DNA of 64,000 nt, from the NCBI RefSeq assembly GCF_014698145.1, contig NZ_JACJSM010000003.1:1-64000 (forward strand), read 5' to 3'. This document shows positions 18,416 through 21,250 of the stretch, in pieces. Position numbers and translations under genes: made by a program. How positions within the stretch are numbered: the first letter of the stretch is position 1; the number at the start of each line of letters is the position of its first letter. The notes beneath the pieces were generated by a model, which was given only the letters and a program-made list of their open reading frames with translations, was not told where the DNA came from and did no database searches. This stretch comes from Oscillatoria sp. FACHB-1406 (GTDB taxonomy: Bacteria; Cyanobacteriota; Cyanobacteriia; Cyanobacteriales; Spirulinaceae).

Positions 18416-19132
18416 TTAAACGTCCGAAACGCTCGTTTCCGGTTTATTAATTTGTGCTGAATGGGGCAAACAAATTAAATTATCCCCCTCTACTAAAACC
18501 AATCCTTGCTGCCGCAGTTTGCCCATTAGACGAGTCACCGTCACCCGCGTCGAACCGATGGCGCTGCCAATTTGTGCGTGCGTGAGCGAGTAAGGCAAAC
18601 AGTAACCTTGCTCGGTAGATTCGCCGTATTCTTCGACTAACAGCGTAATAAATCCGAGCAGGCGATCGATGGTGCGCCGCTGTCCGAGGGTACTCAACCA
18701 CAACAATTTGCGCTGGTGTTGATAGCGAAAAGCATCTAAAACTTCTTTACGAAAATGCGGCCAATTGTCGAGATCGTGCCAATACATCCAAATCACCGAT
18801 GTTTGTTCGGTGTGGGCGTAGGCTTGCAGAGCGAAGGGCGATTGGGCGACAATTTCAAAGGGGTATCCCGCGCCAACAAAACCCAAGAAAGCGTCTTCAA
18901 CGACGGATGTAGCGGTTTCCTCTTCACCGTCATCCACCGCAGCGCTCAACTGCGAAGTCCCAACGAGGCGCACGGCACCGCGCTGAACGAGGTAGAGTAA
19001 GCCCGGTCTTGCGGGGACGCGCTCGTCTTTGGCAAAGGCGCGATCGCGGTAGTGAGCTTGCGCCCAATCGATGATCCGTTGCCACGTCAAGAAAGGTCTA
19101 GATGCATCTGTTGGAGACGATGAGGACTGCAT
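18416..19132 (-). CDS. Crp/Fnr-family transcription regulator
   Basis: About 238 aa from ATG 19132; the frame extends to a GTG at 19147, but that would overlap the divergent gene at 19141. An N-terminal cyclic-nucleotide-binding-like beta roll (LLYLVQRGAVRLVGTSQ ... AFLGFVGAGYPFEIVA), a long dimer helix (FRYQHQRKLLWLSTLGQR) and a C-terminal winged helix (LTHAQIGSAIGSTRVTVTRL) are recognisable. The phosphate-binding cassette of true cAMP receptors is not evident, and an acidic insertion (VDDGEEETATSV) interrupts the roll, so the effector is unknown. The recognition helix GSTRVTVTR is close to that of NtcA. It lies upstream of mutM and may be co-transcribed with it. Confidence 0.88.
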   Translation of the reverse strand: MQSSSSPTDASRPFLTWQRIIDWAQAHYRDRAFAKDERVPARPGLLYLVQRGAVRLVGTSQLSAAVDDGEEETATSVVEDAFLGFVGAGYPFEIVAQSPFALQAYAHTEQTSVIWMYWHDLDNWPHFRKEVLDAFRYQHQRKLLWLSTLGQRRTIDRLLGFITLLVEEYGESTEQGYCLPYSLTHAQIGSAIGSTRVTVTRLMGKLRQQGLVLVEGDNLICLPHSAQINKPETSVSDV

Positions 19133-19140
19133 AGGCGAAA

Positions 19141-20025
19141 ATGCCACTTAAGGATCGAGCCTTATCTAGAGAACATCCTATACAAGGTATCAAACAATAC
19201 GCGCTTTTTGGTATTTCTATTCAGAGTTTTAGACAATTGCATTCCATTCAACAAGAGCTTCAGCAATACTTATCTGTGTTCCTCATCCAGAATGCGATCG
19301 CACCGGGACGCATCGCGTTATACCGCCTCGATCGCCGGTCTGGAATTGCCTATCGCAGCGCGCTTTCGCTAGAACTTGCCGCTCGCGAGGGGGAATCGGC
19401 TGACGCGATCGCCCGAAAACTATGCGCTCGTTTCGTTGAAAATGCGGACAATTGTCCCTTTATCGGGCGTGCCATTGAGGGAGGATTACTGGAATTTCAG
19501 TTGCGCGATCGCAATCTGGCTGAGTGGTTGCAGAAATGGCTCGAAGGAGAGGGGGAGAGGGGGAGAGAGGGAGAGGGAGAGAGGGGGTTGATTGCTTCTG
19601 TCTTTCCGGTGCAGTATGCGCGGGCGCGCTGCTGTTCGTTATTGCGATCGGGGCATCGAGATAAGATTATCGAGTTTGAAGCATCGAAAGGACGATGGCT
19701 GCATCCTCAGCCCATTCCCTGGCTAACTTCGGCTGAGAATGGCGCAACCCTAAGCTTGCAGCATCCCGCCGAACAGCAATTAATCTGGCGGTTGACGGAA
19801 GTGGCGGATGTGCTTGCGGGAGTCTCGAATGCGAATTGTCTCAAACTCGCTTTATCCTTAAGCGAAGCCCTATTAGAGTGCGATCGCGCTTGCCGTATTT
19901 GGGGCGAAGTCAAACGGGATGCCCCTGATTTAGCGATCGCTCGCCTCGGACTACTCGCGGCAACTCGCACCGCGATCGACTGTCTTTTGAACGAGATAGG
20001 CATCCCACCTTTAACAGAACTTTAA
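19141..20025 (+). CDS. DALR anticodon-binding-domain protein (ArgRS-like, no catalytic domain)
   Basis: A 294-aa protein related to the C-terminal half of arginyl-tRNA synthetase. FPVQYARARCCSLLR matches the ArgRS segment just before its anticodon-binding domain, and the C-terminal helical DALR domain (LIWRLTEVADVL ... GLLAATRTAIDCLLNEIG) is present. The HIGH and KMSKS aminoacylation motifs are absent, so it should bind tRNA or a tRNA-like partner without charging it. The central GEGERGREGEGERG is low-complexity, encoded by a purine-only run at about 19550-19590, and is probably a local insertion. The start is the ATG at 19141, nine bases from the divergent regulator's start. Confidence 0.82.
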   Translation: MPLKDRALSREHPIQGIKQYALFGISIQSFRQLHSIQQELQQYLSVFLIQNAIAPGRIALYRLDRRSGIAYRSALSLELAAREGESADAIARKLCARFVENADNCPFIGRAIEGGLLEFQLRDRNLAEWLQKWLEGEGERGREGEGERGLIASVFPVQYARARCCSLLRSGHRDKIIEFEASKGRWLHPQPIPWLTSAENGATLSLQHPAEQQLIWRLTEVADVLAGVSNANCLKLALSLSEALLECDRACRIWGEVKRDAPDLAIARLGLLAATRTAIDCLLNEIGIPPLTEL

Positions 20026-20060
20026 AATTAGTCCCAGTTTTTTTTATTTCAAAAAAAGAC

Positions 20061-20089
20061 TTGACACCCCTCAAAATAGCGATTATATT
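20061..20089 (+). promoter_or_regulatory. Near-consensus sigma-70-type promoter
   Basis: TTGACA (20061-20066), a 17-base spacer, then TATATT (20084-20089). This is the best promoter match in the window and is not followed by an open reading frame, which points to a non-coding transcript starting near 20096. Confidence 0.8.
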
Positions 20090-20095
20090 CTGGAG

Positions 20096-20190
20096 GTGTG
20101 AGGAGCGAACCAGTGAGGGAACCGAGACGAAACACGGCAAGTCGTCGGTTCTCTTTCTGATCTTAGGGGTTTTTGAGTTTTTGCTCGCTT
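20096..20190 (+). ncRNA. Candidate small RNA, Yfr2-like
   Basis: Downstream of the strong promoter, the predicted RNA begins close to GGTGTGAGGAGCG and folds into a long hairpin. GAGGGAACCGA (20115-20125) pairs with TCGGTTCTCTTTC (20145-20157, two G-U pairs), and GAC (20126-20128) pairs with GTC (20141-20143). The 12-base loop GAAACACGGCAA carries a GAAACA core. The cyanobacterial Yfr2 family shows an unpaired GGAAACA in such a loop, so the resemblance is suggestive. A T-rich tract (20170-20182) may end the transcript. The length is an estimate. The rest of the gap to 20548 shows nothing recognisable. Confidence 0.5.
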
Positions 20191-20548
20191 CCGCGATGAG
20201 GATTTCAAAGCAAAAGAATACCTAGGCACGGTGGAAGCCAAGATCGGAACAGCTTTTTTGGAGCGAGCTTACATCTGATAGTCAGGGGGTAATGTAAGCG
20301 TCATCCGCAGTTTAGGTTCCTTCAGCGGAACGATAGGGGCTGGAAAAGCACTAACCGGAAAACTAAAACAAATAATGCTTGCCTGACCAACGGCTTGAAA
20401 TGCCTCGAAATATTGTTCGGAGTATTTAAACATCAGTCGTATTTTCCAAACTCATTACGTTGAGATTAGCCGCTATTGATGGCGTGCAGATGTTGATCTT
20501 ATGGCAATCGTTTGTCAACGATCGAGAAATTGCCCGATCGATCGCGAT

Positions 20549-21250
20549 TCAACTGTCTTCAAACTTATAGCCCACGCCCACTACAGTTTTAATAAAGCTT
20601 GGATTCGCTGCATCGGGTTCGACTTTTTTGCGCAACCGTCGAATATGCGTATCGACGACTCGTTCGTCGCCAAAAAAATCGTTCCCCCAAAGTTTATCGA
20701 TCAATTGGGTACGACTCCAAACGCGACCGGGCGAAGCAATCATCGTAGCGAGCAAGTTAAATTCTAAAGTGGTTAAATCGAGCGGTTCTGCGGTGTCTTC
20801 CTCGAGGGAACGAGAGGCAATATGCTTGTCGAGATCGAGAGTGAAATGTTGAGTTTGTAAGATTTGACTCTGCTCGCTTTGGCGCAAACTACGTCGCAGC
20901 AAGGCACGCACGCGGGCGACGAGTTCTCTCGGGGAGAAGGGTTTGACGAGGTAGTCGTCTGCGCCGGTGGAAAGTCCGATGACGCGATCGATTTCTTCGC
21001 CCCGGGCGGTAAGCATGAGGATATAAGGATCTTTAATATTGGACTTCTGACGAATGCGCGTGCAGACTTCTAACCCATCCAATCCCGGCAACATGAGATC
21101 GAGAATAATTAAGTCGGGTTGCAGGTTTTGGAACGTTTCTAGGGCATTAAGTCCATCGCGATCGATATGGCAAGAAAATCCTTCGCGTTCGAGGGTTTTC
21201 TGAATGAGGGTAGCGATTTCGGGTTCGTCTTCAACAATTAAGATATTCAT
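20549..21250 (-). CDS. OmpR/PhoB-family response regulator
   Basis: A 233-aa response regulator with a receiver domain at residues 1-120 (VEDEPE acidic pocket, phospho-acceptor Asp51 in LIILDLMLPG, Lys in DDYLVKPFS) and a winged-helix domain at about 135-233 ending VVGVGYKFED. The segment RIRQKSNIKDPYILMLTARG is a conserved variant found in a cyanobacterial subgroup. No histidine kinase gene is adjacent. It differs clearly from the regulator at 8558 (different linker and recognition helix, VVDTHIRRLRKKV), so the two are not recent duplicates. The upstream gap to the ferredoxin-like gene is short (91 bases). Confidence 0.93.
   Translation of the reverse strand: MNILIVEDEPEIATLIQKTLEREGFSCHIDRDGLNALETFQNLQPDLIILDLMLPGLDGLEVCTRIRQKSNIKDPYILMLTARGEEIDRVIGLSTGADDYLVKPFSPRELVARVRALLRRSLRQSEQSQILQTQHFTLDLDKHIASRSLEEDTAEPLDLTTLEFNLLATMIASPGRVWSRTQLIDKLWGNDFFGDERVVDTHIRRLRKKVEPDAANPSFIKTVVGVGYKFEDS

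Follow-up and report, generated by a model that had tools for sequence, protein, structure and literature searches.

The Yfr2 family of cyanobacterial small RNAs (sRNAs) was reportedly surveyed by Gierga et al. in 2009. Its members, among them Yfr2a–c of Synechocystis and Yfr2–5 of Prochlorococcus, have in common an independent promoter, an abundant short transcript, a GUGUGAGGAG-type unpaired 5′ motif, a 12-nt loop starting with GAAACA, and a bulge at −4. Of these, the conserved unpaired 5′ end, the 12-nt loop and the bulge come from the description of the family in PMC2662882 (Voss et al. 2009); yfr2 genes are said there and by Lambrecht et al. (2019; PMC6778093) to be multi-copy, with unconserved loci. 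Yfr2 relieved repression by Yfr1 in an E. coli reporter system, and 302 mRNAs were assigned to Yfr2 as bait by CRAFD-Seq in Prochlorococcus (PMC6778093); in Nostoc, Yfr2 bound Yfr1 in vitro (PMC6974561). Yfr1 (RF01116) is likewise a conserved cyanobacterial sRNA, but it is the predicted partner of the RNA described here, not its relative.

The DNA analyzed here (the window) is a stretch of 64,000 nucleotides from Oscillatoria sp. FACHB-1406, comprising positions 1 to 64,000 of contig NZ_JACJSM010000003.1. We consider it highly probable that the window contains a stand-alone Yfr2 (Cyano-1) sRNA gene of about 69 nt with its own sigma-70-type promoter, and that the 5′ end of the RNA most likely acts as a decoy for Yfr1. 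The features of the locus and of the related loci elsewhere in the genome are collected in Table 1.

Table 1. Positions of the Yfr2-family RNA, its parts, its neighbors and related RNAs of the same genome
Feature	Position	Strand	Basis or remark
CRP/FNR-family regulator gene	18416-19147	-	Conserved neighbor in many relatives
DALR anticodon-binding-domain protein gene	19141..20025	+	Upstream conserved neighbor
-35 promoter element TTGACA	20061..20066	+	Sequence scan; kept in orthologues
-10 promoter element TATATT	20084..20089	+	Sequence scan; kept in orthologues
Yfr2-family sRNA, conserved extent	20096..20164	+	RF01701, 34.4 bits at 20092-20159; subgroup model R1, 95.1 bits at 20096-20164; conservation profile
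Single-stranded 5′ motif GUGUGAGGAG	20096..20105	+	Exact complement of Yfr1 core CUCCUCACAC
GAAC, kept in subgroup	20107..20110	+	Complementary to GUUC just upstream of Yfr1 core
Bulged stem	20111..20159	+	20111-20113/20157-20159, 20115-20125/20145-20155, 20126-20128/20141-20143
12-nt apical loop GAAACACGGCAA	20129..20140	+	Fold; orthologue alignment
OmpR-type response regulator gene	20549..21250	-	Convergent; occupies place of HAD-type gene of many relatives
Yfr1	G000:C3:98353-98415	-	RF01116, 61 bits; single copy in genome
Second Yfr2	G000:C1:264650-264723		RF01701, 52.5 bits, above cut-off

We infer the exact ends of the RNA. The 5′ end is predicted at 20095–20096, and the sequence from 20096 reads GUGUGAGGAGCGAACCAGUGAGGGAACCGAGACGAAACACGGCAAGUCGUCGGUUCUCUUUCUGAUCUU. 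Because the hairpin has no clear U-run behind it, the 3′ end is uncertain; it was put near 20160–20165, because conservation in the orthologue profile falls about 19 nt past the bulged G20144. The conserved RNA stops near 20164, whereas the preliminary description had carried the feature on to 20190. When folded alone, the conserved extent gave an unpaired 15-nt 5′ end followed by a hairpin (minimum free energy −24.1 kcal/mol), and the folding energy of the hairpin was only modestly better than that of shuffled sequences (z −1.8). As first described, there is a long hairpin, and its loop contains GAAACA; the GGAAACA named in that description as the family hallmark is literally absent, the loop reading CGAAACA. 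The bulged G20144 lies four positions from the loop, after the three pairs GAC/GUC. Two other pairings were rejected. A fold taken to 20195 paired the 5′ motif with downstream sequence, whereas the conserved extent alone left the motif free; pairing of the 5′ GAACC with GGUUC in the stem was discarded since orthologues alter the stem (for example to CACCG/CGGUG) and leave GAACC unaltered.

Conservation, whose absence would have counted against the preliminary description, was evident from BLASTN with 20020–20290, which matched 47 of the 59 related genomes with best E values of 1e-20 to 1e-28; nearly all of these matches spanned little beyond the RNA, with identities of up to 96%. In an alignment of 43 copies, 97.1% of the cells were paired in the structure, and compensatory changes were found at 8 of the 17 pairs. 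The covariation score was 0.298, compared with 0.131 for shuffled alignments; slid structures did not exceed 0.103. Conservation of the RNA is far above chance. Among the 43 orthologues the 5′ motif was near-invariant, as were, almost completely, the loop and inner stem; the outer stem covaried freely, whereas the inner stem did not, and spacer lengths differed by 1–2 nt.

The 5′ motif is exactly complementary to the core of the Yfr1 that the genome encodes on the same contig, at a distance of 78 kb and, by our own reading, beside a thioredoxin gene. This complementarity is the strongest Yfr2 hallmark of the RNA and was absent from the preliminary description. Because Yfr1 reads GUUCACUCCUCACACC in 44 of the 45 relatives examined, the GAAC of the subgroup can extend the duplex by four pairs beyond a single C-A mismatch, which lies at 20106 between the core duplex and the GAAC/GUUC pairs. 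The computed energy of binding to Yfr1 was −20.4 kcal/mol, compared with a mean of −6.4 (sd 2.5) once the partner was shuffled. Predicted binding fell to −10.4 kcal/mol on average when the 10-nt motif alone was shuffled and to −17.8 when GAAC was changed; replacing C20106 by U, which turns the mismatch into a pair, gave −24.6. The mismatch is conserved even though U is predicted to pair better, and therefore maximal affinity for Yfr1 is not what selection kept; a role of the mismatch in nuclease protection is speculation.

Our proposal is that the RNA would be transcribed from its own sigma-70-type promoter, that its unpaired 5′ end would most likely pair with the complementary core of Yfr1, and that sequestration of Yfr1 would relieve repression of the targets of Yfr1; for the 12-nt loop, contact with a protein or with additional mRNAs is possible. 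That structure and promoter are conserved, that the RNA belongs to the family and that the genome also encodes Yfr1, with which strong pairing is predicted, was computed or read from the sequence; a decoy function of the window RNA is most likely by analogy with other Yfr2 RNAs, from Prochlorococcus and Nostoc.

The near-invariance of the loop and inner stem exceeds what a plain decoy needs, and covariation is free in the outer stem and absent from the inner one. These observations, and the 302 mRNAs recovered with Yfr2 as bait, favor an alternative in which an RNA of Yfr2 architecture has its main job elsewhere: the loop and inner stem would bind particular mRNAs or a protein, and the role of the 5′ motif would be secondary. 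Against it, the 5′ motif ranks beside them as most conserved and matches the Yfr1 of the same genomes; we regard this alternative as possible but rather unlikely.

The promoter reported in the preliminary description, TTGACA-17-TATATT (20061–20089), is present, with 11 of 12 consensus matches and a 17-nt spacer. As a single site it was not above chance in a scan at a looser threshold (1 found, 2.9 expected). The best −35/−10 pair averaged 9.85 of 12 matches over the upstream regions of orthologues, of which 150 non-identical ones were compared, and 6.5 in shuffled sequences; the spacer was usually 17 nt, with 6–7 nt between the −10 element and the RNA start. The promoter is therefore conserved among orthologues, and, as had also been noted, no gene follows it: the window has no same-strand gene downstream of the RNA, the next gene being the convergent one on the minus strand. 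Orthologues also have an A-tract/T-tract (AAAA-TTTT-like) in common at −60 to −40, 5′ of the −35 box (about 20036–20060 in the window), which could serve as an UP element, as the site of a regulator, or as the terminator of the upstream gene.

Neighboring genes were counted at named loci with enough flank, using one protein query each and a distance limit, so that the counts are lower bounds: the DALR-domain gene lay immediately upstream on the same strand at at least 66 of 99 loci, and a convergent HAD-type gene lay downstream at at least 52 of 96. The CRP-family gene was found further upstream at many loci. In the window, the NCBIfam PtrA and NtcA models match the CRP/FNR-family regulator well below their cut-offs, and the DALR-domain gene contains an in-frame, low-complexity GGAGAG-type repeat (19546–19590) encoding a Glu/Arg/Gly-rich stretch.

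This arrangement bears on whether the RNA could be the 3′ UTR or terminator of the DALR-domain gene, or the leader of a downstream gene. The RNA starts about 70 nt past the stop codon of that gene, on the same strand and in a conserved arrangement, and Yfr2b and Yfr2c of Synechocystis share their start site with a downstream gene (PMC2662882). However, the RNA has its own conserved promoter between it and the DALR-domain gene, about one-third of the named loci have the RNA with no detectable DALR gene, and the window offers no downstream same-strand gene to lead. A UTR or leader is accordingly a very improbable explanation.

Membership in the Yfr2 family was examined with covariance models. 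The Rfam model RF01701 (Cyano-1, Yfr2 family) spans the window RNA from one end to the other with a score of 34.4 bits (E 4.7e-4). The gathering score, which is a curation threshold and not a biological trait, is higher, at 41 bits; at default Rfam cut-offs, a tRNA was the sole match in the window. A covariance-model search had been suggested in the preliminary description. Copies in relatives scored about 33–46 bits, and because 11 of them pass the cut-off, at 41.4–46.0 bits, the shortfall of the window copy reflects the coverage of the model and not missing family features. Conversely, R1, a covariance model built from this subgroup alone, detected canonical Yfr2 copies with E values of about 1e-7 to 1e-11. 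All three published features, the unpaired 5′ motif, the 12-nt GAAACA loop and the bulge at −4, were found in the window RNA, and it was placed in the Yfr2 family for that reason. A Yfr2a primer (PMC2662882) reads back as CGAAACATGGCAAGACTCC, giving the loop GAAACATGGCAA, one base off the window loop. Between the two possibilities left by the preliminary description, a divergent Yfr2 member or a separate RNA, the cross-detection by RF01701 and R1, the relatives above the cut-off, the shared architecture and orthology support the former and rule against the latter. Six viral contigs fit a loose Yfr2 pattern, but none matched RF01701 at its cut-off or R1, and they were set aside as chance hits.

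A chance or convergent resemblance to Yfr2 in an unrelated sRNA would fit with the score of the window copy under the Rfam cut-off and with the clean separation of the subgroup from other Yfr2 copies in score; it has almost no probability, given that relatives' copies exceed the cut-off, that each model finds the members of the other, and that the 5′ motif, 12-nt loop and bulge position are all those of Yfr2. A short protein-coding gene is practically out of the question: a 54-amino-acid open reading frame can be read from TTG at 20061, but that TTG is part of the −35 box, the stem varies in a compensatory and not a codon-like manner, and spacers differ by 1–2 nt among orthologues.

Within the family, the window RNA belongs to a distinguishable subgroup. 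R1 scores from 386 genomes of the phylum split in two: copies of this type lie at about 74–99 bits, and the remaining Yfr2 copies lie below about 64. The subgroup differs from other Yfr2 RNAs in the pairs that close the loop, which are GAC/GUC where the others have GUC/GAC, and in a conserved GCGAACCAG behind the 5′ motif, a near-fixed inner stem sequence, the lack of a clear U-tract following the stem, frequently conserved neighbors, and scores often below the Rfam cut-off. The source genome has one copy of each type; its second Yfr2 has the same architecture and an identical 12-nt loop, but its 5′ motif continues GAGGAAUAG, and its spacer, stem and locus are different. Computed binding to Yfr1 was slightly better for the subgroup than for the other type (means of −19.7 and −18.4), and better in 14 of 17 genomes with both (Wilcoxon p 0.02, n=17 genomes that are not independent). 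Carriers among the matches listed include Nostoc, Microcystis, Calothrix, Moorena, Leptolyngbya, Gloeomargarita and an uncultured Thermosynechococcus. Comparison of the BLASTN and RF01701 tables showed that 17 of the 59 relatives have no Yfr2 above the Rfam cut-off, and that the subgroup is present in all 17. Two genomes (G028 and G055) have the RNA in tandem, and in another (G008) a degenerate second copy lies downstream (loci L043, L045 and L002), which suggests local duplication of this Yfr2 type. One contig binned as Candidatus Gracilibacteria (L106, JAAUUT010000080.1) has an exact match to this cyanobacterial RNA and is probably a mis-binned cyanobacterial contig.

The subgroup is mostly single-copy, widespread in the class, near-fixed in sequence and often syntenic, and it looks old. 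It is an exception to the unconserved yfr2 loci described in PMC6778093 and PMC2662882; new relative to those papers are the mostly single-copy subgroup, its often conserved neighbors, and the GAAC that faces a nearly invariant GUUC in Yfr1. Tentatively, and as a less than even prospect, this could be a distinct, anciently fixed Yfr2 paralogue class that, at a frequently conserved position, carries the core Yfr1-decoy function in many cyanobacteria while other Yfr2 copies come and go, by way of a bipartite duplex (10 bp and 4 bp, parted by a conserved mismatch) that may shield the pair from nuclease cleavage.

The window RNA is real, though an ordinary representative of an sRNA family that was already known; it is of specialist interest and not a new kind of system. 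A default Rfam cut-off overlooks Yfr2 entirely in the 17 genomes noted above. Yfr2 matters as the counter to Yfr1, a near-universal cyanobacterial sRNA, and the subgroup, as the only detectable Yfr2 in many genomes, provides a defined gene to delete where it is alone.
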